A stretch of 64,000 bases of DNA from Bacteroidota bacterium. Lineage in GTDB: Bacteria; Bacteroidota; Bacteroidia; B-17B0; Aurantibacillaceae. Both the position numbers and the translations under genes were made by a program. The stretch is taken from NCBI GenBank assembly GCA_030684395.1, contig JAUXTT010000017.1, positions 310,001-374,000 of the forward strand. Direction: 5' to 3'. Of the stretch, positions 58,295 through 63,676 are shown one piece after another. The notes beneath the pieces were generated by a model. The model was not told where the DNA came from. It ran no database searches and was given only the letters and a program-made list of their open reading frames with translations. Positions within the stretch are counted from its first letter, which is position 1, and every line of letters starts with the position of its first letter.

Positions 58295-58609
58295 ATGACA
58301 ACCGGTCAGGTTTGGTTAGAACTTATACCTCTATTTGGACTTGTATGGCAGTTTTTCAATGTGAACCGTGTTATGCGTTCTGTTGAAAACGAATTTAAAG
58401 TGCGAGGCATGAACTATTCCGAAATTTCAGGCGCAACTAATTTGGGAAAGGCATCATGCATATTAAGTTGTTGCGGCATAATTCCCATAATTGGCGGATT
58501 GATAAGGCTAGCCTCTATAATCTGCTGGATCATTTTTTGGGTAAAGACCTCAAACTTAAAAAAGCAGTTAGAGAACTACCAGCTACATAAAATTGAGCAC
58601 ATCAAATAA
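58295..58609 (+). CDS. Small membrane protein of unknown function
   Basis: This 104-residue protein opens with VWLELIPLFGLVWQFFNVNRVMRSV, has a Cys-Gly-Cys-rich second helix (GKASCILSCCGIIPIIGGLI) and a third hydrophobic stretch (ASIICWIIFWVKTSNLKKQL). Similar sequence occurs as the membrane part of larger Bacteroidota proteins that have an N-terminal zinc-ribbon or GYF-type domain; here that domain is missing. The role is unknown. It follows the nuo operon on the same strand, 21 bp after the 39-codon gene. Confidence 0.65.
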   Translation: MTTGQVWLELIPLFGLVWQFFNVNRVMRSVENEFKVRGMNYSEISGATNLGKASCILSCCGIIPIIGGLIRLASIICWIIFWVKTSNLKKQLENYQLHKIEHIK

Positions 58610-58629: not shown

Positions 58630-59208
58630 TCAAAAAAACTTAGCCAAACAATAGATATAACTATCCAATTGATCGGTTTTAAAATGTACTAGCTTAGCTG
58701 TTGTATCAATTCTCGTTATTGCCAATTCTTCCCAATTACTTCTTATTTTTAGGTCTGAAAGCATTGCAGACACATTACTGATCTTAATACGGTAAGGTTT
58801 ATAATTGTGTGTTTGATTAAAAATAGTAACATTGTTAAAGGGAAACTTTATGAGCGCATCCTTATCCAAACTCTCAGCGCTACTGGTAAAAAACACCAAA
58901 CCGTTTTTACCTCCATTTATATAAGTGTTTGGTATATCTCCGGTTTCTACCATATAGTGTTTCCAGTAAAAGGACTGATTAGTTTTAACAGAGCCGGGCT
59001 CCACCGATAAATATCCATACTTTACATAAACTATGTTCGCAACCGAATCATAGGAGTCGGGCACATAAAATGACAATTCGGAGCCCCCTGATTTGATCTG
59101 TAATTTTTTATCCTCCGGAATAAAGTATTCCGTATGATCCTTATTGCATGCGCAAAACATCAACAGCGATAAAACACCGCATACTATTAATTTATTTAAT
59201 TGTCCCAT
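58630..59208 (-). CDS. Unknown lipoprotein, third gene of the caspase operon
   Basis: This 192-residue protein has a lipoprotein signal (lipobox LMFCAC, then NKDH). The body looks beta-rich (LQIKSGGSELSFYVPDSYDS, LVFFTSSAESLDKDALIKF) with no recognised family or catalytic motif. Its start at 59208 overlaps the end of the upstream outer-membrane-protein gene by 13 bp, so it is translationally coupled to it. The coupling suggests that it acts with that protein and with the caspase-like protein at the envelope. Function unknown. Confidence 0.7.
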   Translation of the reverse strand: MGQLNKLIVCGVLSLLMFCACNKDHTEYFIPEDKKLQIKSGGSELSFYVPDSYDSVANIVYVKYGYLSVEPGSVKTNQSFYWKHYMVETGDIPNTYINGGKNGLVFFTSSAESLDKDALIKFPFNNVTIFNQTHNYKPYRIKISNVSAMLSDLKIRSNWEELAITRIDTTAKLVHFKTDQLDSYIYCLAKFF

Positions 59209-60635
59209 CTTTGAATATCATAATTAAACTGAATGCCTACACTATAAAAACTTTTGTAATACTTATTTCTATCCGGAGAAATAACCGAATGTTCTCCGGT
59301 AACACCAACAGAGAATTTATTTGTTTTGTACAATAGTCCGATATTGGCTGTCGGACTGATAAATCGAACTTTCGAAGTAAAATTGTTCCAGTGCTTTAGT
59401 CTCCAGTTCATCCTAAGCCCTGCGTTTAATACAAAATAATTCGGCTTACTACTATTTATAAATCGATACCCTATTCTATGTTCATTTATCAACATAGAAT
59501 AGGTGTTTTTAACATCAATCTCGTTATAAGATGCGTCGGCGATTCCTTTACTTGTGCTTAAAAATAACAGAAAATTATCCTGATAATTCTTAGCTGCCCG
59601 TTCATAAATAAAAGTGTATGAACGAAATGCAAGCGCATGCCGGATAAACCAATTATTAGATTTCCCAATTGAACGATCGTAATAAAGTGAAAGTAATGGA
59701 CTGAATTTTGTTTTTGCCCTTTCCTTAATTTCCACACTTAAGAATCCGTCGTATGAATAACCATCCCCAGCTGAGTAAGGCGTCTCTAATCCACCGTACT
59801 CAATCTCAAAACCAGTAAGCGAATCTTTTAAAATCTCAAATCCTGAACTAAATGGGTGCTCAACAGAAACCCCAAAAGCGTTCGGTTTAACATAAGCTTT
59901 TCTTTTTGTAATAGAGCCTAGATCTTCCCGCTCTACTTTGATCTTCTTAACAATGTTTTTACTTAAAATATCTGCTTTAAAAACAAGATATGCACTGGAA
60001 GAAAAAGAATGCATATACTGATTTATAGGTCCATAACTCTGATCGTAATAAGCATAGATGCCATAAATCTTCATTTTAAAGCCCACACCAAAACTCAACA
60101 CATTAACAGATTTCATGTTTGAATTTAGCCAGTTTACGTAATTTTTAAAATCATACCTAATTGCGCCGTTAACCGGGTTGTCAAAATAATGCTTTGTAAA
60201 GCGGTAATTCCCGAAACCAAGAGACACCCAAGGTTGAACCAATTTATTCACTAAAAACTCCTTCCCAACATAGAGTCTGGTGTAGACATATTTATTTTCA
60301 TAGTAATCACTATAGGAAAAATCATCAATGTGCTTCCCATTAGCACCCTTATCATCAAAATTATACCTTTTCGATCCATAGCTAAACCTAGCTCCCATAA
60401 AAAATTTATTCTTGGTTTCCAGCTCTAAATAAATTCCCGGTATATCAATCGAAGATTGCGCCTTCAGATCCTTTATATAAAAAAATGTTGCATTGTTGTA
60501 AACAGTATCAATATTAATTATATCGTGTTTGATATTATTAGTTGTAGACAAGGACCAATCAGTCCCTAACGAAAGGCTCTGGGCACTAAGCATGCCCGAA
60601 CAAAAAAATGCAAGTATAAATAACGATTTTCTCAT
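59196..60635 (-). CDS. Unknown outer-membrane beta-barrel-like protein, second gene of the caspase operon
   Basis: This 479-residue protein has a signal peptide (cleavage near MLSAQS) and a long body of alternating amphipathic strands rich in Tyr and Phe (KFFMGARFSYGSKRYNF, VQPWVSLGFGNYRFTKHYF, YFVLNAGLRMNWRLKHW, KFSVGVTGEHSVISPD), ending in the strand VGIQFNYDIQRW. This fits an outer-membrane beta barrel of unknown type. Its ATG overlaps the caspase stop (ATGA), and its end overlaps the next lipoprotein gene by 13 bp. I recognise no family. Confidence 0.7.
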   Translation of the reverse strand: MRKSLFILAFFCSGMLSAQSLSLGTDWSLSTTNNIKHDIINIDTVYNNATFFYIKDLKAQSSIDIPGIYLELETKNKFFMGARFSYGSKRYNFDDKGANGKHIDDFSYSDYYENKYVYTRLYVGKEFLVNKLVQPWVSLGFGNYRFTKHYFDNPVNGAIRYDFKNYVNWLNSNMKSVNVLSFGVGFKMKIYGIYAYYDQSYGPINQYMHSFSSSAYLVFKADILSKNIVKKIKVEREDLGSITKRKAYVKPNAFGVSVEHPFSSGFEILKDSLTGFEIEYGGLETPYSAGDGYSYDGFLSVEIKERAKTKFSPLLSLYYDRSIGKSNNWFIRHALAFRSYTFIYERAAKNYQDNFLLFLSTSKGIADASYNEIDVKNTYSMLINEHRIGYRFINSSKPNYFVLNAGLRMNWRLKHWNNFTSKVRFISPTANIGLLYKTNKFSVGVTGEHSVISPDRNKYYKSFYSVGIQFNYDIQRWDN

Positions 60636-63571
60636 TTGATCAGCATATTGTTATAGATATTCTCGCTCCTGCTAGTAGGCACCTGTAATCCGTTAGATAA
60701 TCTTTTCACTTCTGTCATTAAATACTGTTGCAATTCATCCAAAAATATTTTACCGTCTTTATTACTATCGCACTTATTCTTCTTCAACCCGTTGAGCAAA
60801 CAATATGTGAACACACCGTTGTTCCATTTATCACCTTCAATAGCGTACTCAGCTCCACCTGCCGAAGAAACAACTGTAACACCATTGTTTTGCCTGAGGT
60901 CAGCAAATAAAATTTTGGAAACCTCAAGTGAATTTTTCAATCCAACAGCATTCTCTTTTGCAACAACACCACCCGACACCGAACGAAATACCAGGCCATC
61001 ATCGCTTACAGTGGTTTCATTTGTTTTTACAAGATCCTCTTTATCTACTTCGCCCGAATGACATGCGTCTATATAAACGATCTTATTACGAGCAGGAATT
61101 TTTTCAAGGAACGCTATTAAAGAATCGTAAGCAATTCCCCTTTTTTCCGGGTGATTAAAATCCACATCAAAAGTACTTAGATAATAATTCAGCTCCTTAT
61201 CTAACAAGCCGTGTCCTGCATAAAACAGAACAATTTCGTCATTTACAGATATCTTATCCCACGATTGAAGTGCGCTAAACACTGCGCTTTTTGTAACACC
61301 TGTACTACTAATGTTTTTAACTTCTACTGTTCGATATTTCTTATTCTTTACATAGGATTTAGAAAAGTCCTCCGCATCTTTGGCCGGATATTTAAGGTCT
61401 CCACCTGCCTGTTCAAATTTATTTGCTCCTATTGCCAATATGTATAGAGAAGGTTTTTGATGGTTAATTCTTGTGATACTAAGGTCTTCCTTTACCGAGC
61501 TAAAACCATTTCCGCTAATTGCATACACTTGAATAAAATTGTTACCCGAACTCAATTCTACCTGGATACTATCCTTTAAGGAAAAATTGTTCGAATAGGT
61601 TTTTTGTGCAATTGCTCCTCCGTTTATCAAAATATGAACAGAGGCAATGCCTGCATTAGCATCAGATGCTGTATAAACAATCGTGTAAAATTTATTTTTT
61701 GTGGTCTTCTCAGAAAAGAGTTTCAGTCCTATCTGAGGCGCGTCTTTAAAATCTATTGTGGTTTTGCTTTCATCAATTCCCAGGCGTTTGATTCGTTTTT
61801 TATATGCATTGGCATACAAAGCTTGTTGTTGTTCGTCAAAAAAGGGAAGTTTTGCAATGATCTTTTCAGGATGATTGTACTGCAAATCAAATTGCTCAAA
61901 TGGATAAACAGATAAACCATTTTTAAAGCCCACATTTTTTAAACCACCCTTAGAGGCATAATAGTAGTTTTCGGGTGTGATGTATAGATAATTGCTCTTA
62001 TAAGAAAGCAAAGTAAGCATTTGCACACCACTCATAAGATCCCATGTTTTAACAGACCCATCAATGCAGGAGGTATAAAGTATATTGTTTTTTTCATCAA
62101 TCCTTACACAACTTATTTCATCTTTATGTGCTTGCACTATTTTGAATTCTTTCCCTTGTATTTTCCATTCAAGGATTGTTCCTGAAGCATTTACTTTGCA
62201 ATTTTGTTTTGTGATATCAGCGCTTAATAACTTTGTTTTATTTACAAAATAGGTGGGATCAAAAGCTGAATACTGTTTCACCGGATTGAGAGAAATGCGG
62301 TTAGTGTTTATTGACCAGGTGCCGCTGTAAGTAGCTGCTTTTTTAAAACCGGCTCCCTCTTGTTGGCCAAATACCAAATCCAATTCAGCTAACGAATCGT
62401 TCAGATATTTAATAGTGCTGATATGAACGCTTATTCCCGCGTTTCTTTTAGAGGCCGATAATTCCACTACACCCTGACGAATCTCATTGGTTTCCATGTT
62501 CCAAAATTTCAACTCTCCATTTGAGGTTCCACTCACGATTTTTTTACCATCGCCACTCAGATCAAAACACGAAATTGCTTGTGACATACTTGAGAACCAA
62601 TGAACAGGTTTAAATTGTTGCATGTCCCACAATACAATTTCCTTCGAACTACTACTTGCAAAATACTTTTGGTCAGGGCTGATAGAAAGGCAATTCACCT
62701 TTTCTTCATGCAGGTTTAATGTTTCAATGTGTTTTCCCTTTTTTGCAGTATACACATAAATAAATCCTTTATTGGTGGCAGCCAACACGTACGTGTTGGA
62801 TACAGCCATTGATGAGTATGACTCAAAGAGTGTTCTGGTAGCAATAGAAAACGGGTGATTGTATTTATTCACTTCTACCTGTTCTTCCATTTTTTTACAT
62901 TGGATCAGGTGGGCTGTTTTAAAATATACCAAGGGTAGTTCAGGGTTTACCAAGGCATCCTGTCGTCCACCTAACTTCTGCATGCTCTTTTCTTCAAGAA
63001 CACTAAGATTCGGCTGTTGAAATGCTTGCCCATTCGGATACGCTACAGTGTACCCACAATTAAATGTTTGATGCAACAAGATTAGTTTATCTCTTGAAAC
63101 CAATCCTACATTAAATGAACCGGGTAGATCGGTTGAGAATTTTTCACTAAAATCTCTATTGTTCAATACAATAAAATTACCTCCGCTAATTATTAAAATT
63201 TCATCCTTTGTTCCTTGCGTGCAATTATTAATGGGCTTTACAAAAGAGTTTTCCTTTTTTCCGGTTGAGAGACTCCATTTACAAACCTGATTTTTCTCAA
63301 CTGTTACAAGGAATGAATCATTTTGTGTAAAAAAAATCTGGCCGCAAGGCTCAGCAGTTATAATAGAAATCAATTGTTTATTAGATCGAAGATCCCAAAC
63401 AATGGTTTTTTTATCGAGTCCTGAACTTGCTAGAAGTGTAGAGTTACAACTAAAAACTAGTTTACTTATGTTTTCTGTATGCCCGGATTGTACGGTAAAT
63501 TCAAATTGCTGACCAAACACACCCGTCGTCTTAATCAACACCAACCAAATCAACACTACAACTCTTCTCAT
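60632..63571 (-). CDS. Exported WD40-repeat protein with C-terminal caspase-like protease
   Basis: This 979-residue protein starts with a signal peptide (cleavage near GVFGQQ). WD40-type repeats lie in the N-terminal half (about residues 25-110, 265-350 and 470-520, for example VFSCNSTLLASSGLDKKTI then VWDL, ISPDQKYFASSSSKEIVLWD, KSGTSNGELKFWN in part). From about residue 720 a caspase/metacaspase domain follows (LYILAIGANKFE...), with the catalytic dyad His787 in FYAGHG and Cys837 in DACHSG. A canonical EF-hand loop DSNKDGKIFLDE at 935-946 suggests calcium control. It should be a cysteine endopeptidase in the periplasm or at the surface; substrates are unknown. It heads an overlapping three-gene operon. 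Confidence 0.9.
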   Translation of the reverse strand: MRRVVVLIWLVLIKTTGVFGQQFEFTVQSGHTENISKLVFSCNSTLLASSGLDKKTIVWDLRSNKQLISIITAEPCGQIFFTQNDSFLVTVEKNQVCKWSLSTGKKENSFVKPINNCTQGTKDEILIISGGNFIVLNNRDFSEKFSTDLPGSFNVGLVSRDKLILLHQTFNCGYTVAYPNGQAFQQPNLSVLEEKSMQKLGGRQDALVNPELPLVYFKTAHLIQCKKMEEQVEVNKYNHPFSIATRTLFESYSSMAVSNTYVLAATNKGFIYVYTAKKGKHIETLNLHEEKVNCLSISPDQKYFASSSSKEIVLWDMQQFKPVHWFSSMSQAISCFDLSGDGKKIVSGTSNGELKFWNMETNEIRQGVVELSASKRNAGISVHISTIKYLNDSLAELDLVFGQQEGAGFKKAATYSGTWSINTNRISLNPVKQYSAFDPTYFVNKTKLLSADITKQNCKVNASGTILEWKIQGKEFKIVQAHKDEISCVRIDEKNNILYTSCIDGSVKTWDLMSGVQMLTLLSYKSNYLYITPENYYYASKGGLKNVGFKNGLSVYPFEQFDLQYNHPEKIIAKLPFFDEQQQALYANAYKKRIKRLGIDESKTTIDFKDAPQIGLKLFSEKTTKNKFYTIVYTASDANAGIASVHILINGGAIAQKTYSNNFSLKDSIQVELSSGNNFIQVYAISGNGFSSVKEDLSITRINHQKPSLYILAIGANKFEQAGGDLKYPAKDAEDFSKSYVKNKKYRTVEVKNISSTGVTKSAVFSALQSWDKISVNDEIVLFYAGHGLLDKELNYYLSTFDVDFNHPEKRGIAYDSLIAFLEKIPARNKIVYIDACHSGEVDKEDLVKTNETTVSDDGLVFRSVSGGVVAKENAVGLKNSLEVSKILFADLRQNNGVTVVSSAGGAEYAIEGDKWNNGVFTYCLLNGLKKNKCDSNKDGKIFLDELQQYLMTEVKRLSNGLQVPTSRSENIYNNMLIK

Positions 63572-63676
63572 ATGTCTGCAAGTTAGGCCTTATGTGACAA
63601 CAAATGTTGCATGTCTTTCCCCTAATTATAAACATTTCGTAAAACTCTTTGAAAGTTAAATCAATCAAATCACTAC

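Follow-up and report, generated by a model that had tools for sequence, protein, structure and literature searches.

Three overlapping genes on the minus strand of the window (the whole 64,000-nucleotide stretch of Bacteroidota DNA analyzed here) encode an exported WD40-caspase, an outer-membrane-barrel-like protein, and a lipoprotein. Distant Bacteroidota share this trio in two gene orders, one of which is also found in Chlorobiota, and its distribution points to an outer-membrane protease complex. We assign a probability of roughly 0.55 to the reading that the operon specifies a single outer-membrane-associated protease complex of three proteins, as suggested by the export of all three products and by the kinds of protein combined: an outer-membrane barrel, a lipid-anchored protein, and a propeller-caspase that is soluble.

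The window ORF list places the caspase, barrel, and lipoprotein genes in that order (Table 1), with overlaps of 4 bp (60632-60635) and 13 bp (59196-59208), as an earlier first-pass annotation had described, and the export signals that it had read on all three products are visible as signal peptides in the protein sequences. Upstream of the caspase gene, after a gap of 105 bp, lies an acyltransferase-like gene, and on the other side of the three genes is a nuo operon. A genome of the same genus (G001) has other genes after nuoN, with the local order not conserved, and no relatives of the barrel protein or the lipoprotein were found in it, so we regard the operon as accessory. A convergent, membrane-protein-like ORF of 104 aa on the plus strand (58295-58609), with no Pfam match, stops 20 bp from the lipoprotein stop codon.

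Table 1. Features of the caspase-barrel-lipoprotein operon (window coordinates)
Feature	Position	Strand	Basis
WD40-caspase gene, 979 aa, exported	60632..63571	-	Pfam WD40 E 7.5e-25, Peptidase_C14 E 1.1e-12
WD40 beta-propeller region, approximately residues 28-540	61952..63490	-	Pfam WD40 stretches
Caspase (C14) domain, residues about 705-979	60635..61459	-	Peptidase_C14 match at residues 712-970
Catalytic His787 codon (AGHG)	61211..61213	-	Invariant in 110/110 aligned caspases
Catalytic Cys837 codon (DACHSG)	61061..61063	-	Invariant in 110/110 aligned caspases
EF-hand-like loop, residues 935-946 (DSNKDGKIFLDE)	60734..60769	-	Conserved in 110/110 aligned caspases
Outer-membrane-barrel-like protein (479 aa); SLSLG follows the signal peptide	59196..60635	-	Homologous to other caspase-linked barrels
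Conserved N-terminal barrel domain (predicted), residues 18-245	59901..60584	-	AF2 strands, VIA-align, profile match to order-B barrels
Variable C-terminal part (residues 246-479), which L080 and L088 lack	59199..59900	-	Low-confidence beta-rich model
Lipoprotein gene, 192 aa	58630..59208	-	Relatives beside caspases
Putative lipidation Cys21 codon	59146..59148	-	Same residue in every relative of two alignments (4 and 11 sequences); lipidation inferred
Possible promoter TTCAAA-17-TATAAT	63625..63653	-	Consensus scan, 105-bp gap upstream of caspase gene; count of such sites in region not above chance

Pfam recognizes WD40 and Peptidase_C14, both above cut-off, in the caspase and no family at E ≤ 1 in the barrel protein or the lipoprotein, and an NCBIfam scan of the three proteins returned nothing but a sub-cut-off caspase model. 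The first-pass claim that the two partners belong to no known family therefore stands for Pfam and NCBIfam, but not in the wider sense, since both are distant members of the caspase-linked families defined here.

The caspase carries the signal peptide MRRVVVLIWLVLIKTTGVFGQ, putatively cut before Q, and its Peptidase_C14 score of 48.6 bits against a curated cut-off of 21.4 places it in that family. The His787/Cys837 dyad, previously called intact, is invariant in all 110 aligned caspases; loss of the dyad in homologues, which the first-pass annotation had named as evidence against its own proposal, was seen in none of them. Residues D935 to E946 carry the ligand pattern of an EF-hand (acidic or amide residues at positions 1, 3, and 5 and Glu at 12), with D1 and E12 invariant and positions 3 and 5 always D or N across the same 110 sequences. 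The loop does lie near the end of the caspase, as had been claimed, but it is no special sign of the operon because it occurs in every caspase compared, with or without partner genes. Judged from this alignment, the dyad and the loop are traits of the whole sampled family of exported caspases rather than of the operon, and they support an active, possibly calcium-binding enzyme. No PDB sequence match was found for the caspase domain.

The barrel protein carries the signal peptide MRKSLFILAFFCSGMLSAQ, putatively cut before S. Its AlphaFold model has a mean pLDDT of 53, within which residues about 17-227 form a meander of long strands at moderate confidence, and VIA-align places this region at a Z of about 17 (16-18) and an rmsd of 2.5-3.8 against OmpW, OprF, NspA, and OmpA. 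With moderate confidence, these residues are predicted to adopt an OmpW/OmpA-like eight-stranded barrel fold, and structure prediction thus agrees with the beta-barrel proposed at first pass, placing it in the N-terminal part. Unlike OmpW/OmpA-type barrels, the window protein has no Pfam match (neither OMP_b-brl_2 nor OmpW), possesses an extra variable C-terminal half, and is linked to a caspase; its relatives in the opposite gene order described below show weak, sub-cut-off Pfam matches to OMP_b-brl_2 or OmpW. Profile comparison of the C-terminal half gave no match to any of the other parts and no support for its being a duplicate of the N-terminal half. Single-sequence searches with the window barrel found no relative in 60 related genomes or in the genome contig database, and BLASTP against its nearest counterparts gives no significant match (E 0.04-0.8), so that barrel homology rests on profiles; relatives were reached solely by profiles and gene neighborhood. 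One match, a 218-aa barrel-like protein in G131 with no caspase nearby, was set down to general barrel likeness. A perfect inverted repeat of 13 bp lies inside the barrel gene (window 59470-59503); with its T-rich tail, on the plus strand, it may be an antisense terminator, or it may be due to chance.

The lipoprotein signal, LSLLMFCAC21NK, contains a cysteine that is invariant in four close relatives, and the matching Cys is likewise invariant in 11. The structure model of this protein is poor (pLDDT 56), and a fold search with it returned nothing below E 0.05. Lipoproteins of relatives carry recognizable additions, with PepSY_like repeats (E 3e-27) after the shared domain in L116 and L118 and a VWA domain over cut-off in L126. 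Four PepSY_like repeats are present in each of the two former proteins (L116:2271-4496 and L118:5019-6974). The PepSY_like fold is linked to peptidase inhibition, and these repeats hint, on sequence grounds, at a tethered inhibitor; PepSY-like or VWA domains in relatives' lipoproteins would fit a tethered regulator or sensor. The lipoproteins of the opposite gene order look, we presume, ZU5-like (GPEGG, PxGALD); no ZU5 match was found for them in Pfam, and this identity was not retained.

Copies in the gene order of the window (caspase-barrel-lipoprotein) include a second trio in the same genome (C37; 981, 503, and 174 aa) and two trios on two contigs of G017, a member of the same family; in one of these two, the contig ends within the caspase gene. 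Across 87 genomes of the order, barrel relatives in this arrangement were found solely in these two genomes (G000 and G017), beside caspases. The lipoprotein profile led back to these four trios and gave three further, weak matches in G069, G102, and G108; the match in G108, which was set aside, falls in a lipoprotein ORF of 280 aa whose 3.3-kb locus contains no caspase. We further collected 79 public loci with a caspase profile; these are the best matches to one caspase, so frequencies among them are biased, and several contigs end near the genes. Seven further caspase genes, from Cytophagales to Flavobacteriales, are directly followed by a barrel-like gene, mostly with 4-7 bp overlaps (L078, L080, L081, L084, L088, and two in tandem at L089). 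A lipoprotein follows the barrel in L080 (Reichenbachiella faecimaris DSM 26133, a named strain with a version of the operon) and L088, the lipoproteins of the latter not matching that of the window, and L078, L081, L084, and L089 encode 600-aa barrels with no adjacent lipoprotein. At L089 (2196-11997), the first caspase of the tandem pairs is split into frames of 292 and 673 aa, so one copy may be broken. Two loci flagged by script as coupled, L122 and L153, were rejected because their neighbors look unrelated (a 300-aa protein with no signal peptide and a repeat-type protein).

A caspase tree that made no use of gene order groups the caspase-then-barrel loci together, and constraining them to one clade gave the better tree (p-AU 0.93). 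In a second tree, 74 of 107 caspases had no recognized partner, some of these lying at contig ends.

The opposite order (order B), in which a barrel gene and then a lipoprotein gene lie upstream of a caspase gene with small gaps, occurs in other caspase clades, at about 20 loci. Ten belong to a first type (L100, L113, L116, L118, L129, L136, L138, L139, L142, and L152, three Chlorobiota among them) and six to a second (L082 twice, L093, L096, L101, and L114), with further loci at L086, L103, L126, and L187. Profiles of the first type match the window partners for both the lipoprotein (probability 96, E 3e-9) and the barrel (probability 96.8, E 2.5e-10), and mature N-terminal barrel domains of the two orders, compared without their signal peptides, still match at a profile probability of 95.4. 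A scan of 976 ORFs used profiles built without the window sequences: the barrel profile from L078, L081, L084, and L089 recovered the window barrel with an E of 1.2e-5 (best match away from caspases, 0.4), and the order-B lipoprotein profile found the window lipoprotein at 3.9e-4 (best match away from caspases, 0.18). These profile comparisons show both partners of the first order-B type to be homologues of the window barrel and lipoprotein. The k-type barrels and VWA-type lipoproteins match the window partners weakly, and therefore at some loci, those of the second type and those in the VWA group, the parts may be analogous rather than homologous. The order-B barrel profile had no match in 395 genomes of the class, a search that is uninformative for want of a positive control there. 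At L082, L093, L096, L101, L103, and L114, two barrel-like or exported small proteins stand in a row before the lipoprotein and caspase. A different conserved gene set (∼256, 391, and 304 aa) precedes ∼1,710-aa caspases at L117, L119, L140, and L141 (Leeuwenhoekiella and Winogradskyella).

The first-pass annotation had proposed the three genes as a candidate module for calcium-controlled surface proteolysis or cell death, to be checked by gene neighborhood, and had named two findings that would count against it. The trio does turn up again in further genomes and with its genes in a second order, which makes it more than chance; relatives of the caspase that never occur with both partners, the first such finding, are contradicted by the trios at C37, in G017, and at the order-B loci. 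Since neither this nor loss of the dyad came true, we regard the three genes as a module, of which calcium control, a caspase at the cell surface, and a part in cell death would be no more than candidate properties. It is very improbable, and largely refuted by this recurrence, that they are unrelated neighbors overlapping by chance, a view with which the several loci lacking a lipoprotein and the unconserved order beside nuoN would agree, but against which stand two gene orders with both partners homologous across them.

Between full-length module copies, identity is 48-70% in the caspase domain, 20-47% in the propeller, 20-34% in the barrel, and 21-35% in the lipoprotein. This pattern fits a constant cutting part combined with changing recognition or regulatory parts, although the low conservation of propeller, barrel, and lipoprotein could instead reflect relaxed constraint.

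We hypothesize that all three proteins exit the cytoplasm by Sec, as their signal peptides suggest, after which the predicted N-terminal eight-stranded barrel would insert in the outer membrane and the lipoprotein would be tethered through its putatively lipidated cysteine. The WD40-caspase would stay soluble, either within the periplasm or along the membrane face, and would dock on the barrel and lipoprotein via its propeller. Its caspase domain would be the conserved cutting part, the shape of which is probably held by calcium in the EF-hand-like loop, and the complex is on the evidence of this loop probably calcium-binding. The fast-evolving propeller, barrel, and lipoprotein would set what is recognized or when the protease is released.

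Other functions can be assigned to the same parts. The T9SS attachment complex PorU-PorV-PorQ-PorZ, which trims or anchors surface proteins, likewise combines a clan CD protease, in this case of family C25, with a propeller and outer-membrane barrels, and the window caspase could similarly process proteins crossing or on the outer membrane. We consider this unlikely, given that the protease matches C14, with C25 absent among the 25 of 50 families listed, that the NCBIfam scan detected no T9SS C-terminal sorting domain in any of the three proteins (the caspase domain runs to the C terminus), and that the module is rare and accessory, not being found in G001. The intact dyad in a caspase fold, the sensing-type WD40 domain in the caspase and VWA domain in relatives' lipoproteins, and the fast divergence of the partners would all suit an envelope death or self-lysis module in which damage or a ligand frees the caspase to open the envelope. 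This is a still less probable account, as no toxic partner, immunity pair, or cell-death domain was found, the source genome has seven caspase genes of which most lack partners, and the PADLOC match of the window caspase is to the first 130 of 453 positions of a generic caspase model, its partners having no match.

Less plausible again is an outward-facing nutrient or scavenging protease whose cut peptides enter through the barrel. A protease encoded with an outer-membrane barrel and a lipoprotein may resemble the layout of an uptake locus, but the predicted barrel is small and eight-stranded rather than SusC/TonB-type, and the operon contains no transporter.

Exported caspases and surface-linked caspase operons have precedents. 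A survey of prokaryotic caspase homologues describes many with N-terminal helices that are possible signal peptides and 28 homologues in one Bacteroidetes genome, and it records operons with OmpA and surface functions (PMC3501461). Bacterial metacaspases and orthocaspases (Peptidase C14, PF00656) thus share with the window protein the C14 domain with its His/Cys dyad, exported members, and surface-function operons, but in the accessible part of that survey we found no sign that caspase genes are repeatedly joined, in two orders, to genes for a barrel and a lipoprotein (PMC3501461). No description of a caspase-barrel-lipoprotein module was found there or in the literature searched, the coverage of which is incomplete. 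Prokaryotic WD40-caspases similarly join a propeller and a caspase domain in one chain; the combination given in the available portion of the survey is Metacaspase-NACHT-WD40, whereas the window protein has a signal peptide, envelope partners, and no NACHT among the families listed (PMC3501461). The model for EACC1-associated caspases (NF047832) matches the window caspase at 66.8 bits, under its cut-off of 140, and no such partner was found. By analogy, RcsF-type sensors also pair a lipoprotein with outer-membrane barrels and may offer a parallel as envelope monitors; unlike in the window, no protease is named in that complex (PMC4942254).

Beyond the complex itself, we more tentatively suggest, at odds clearly below even, an undescribed class of envelope caspases in Bacteroidota and Chlorobiota, in which a conserved executor would be joined to a diversifying propeller/barrel/lipoprotein receptor so that surface sensing leads to envelope proteolysis. 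Bacterial caspases have mostly been treated as cytoplasmic death or defense proteases. A recurrent operon whose caspase would act at the outer membrane beside membrane partners of its own provides a defined, testable setting for exported bacterial caspases.
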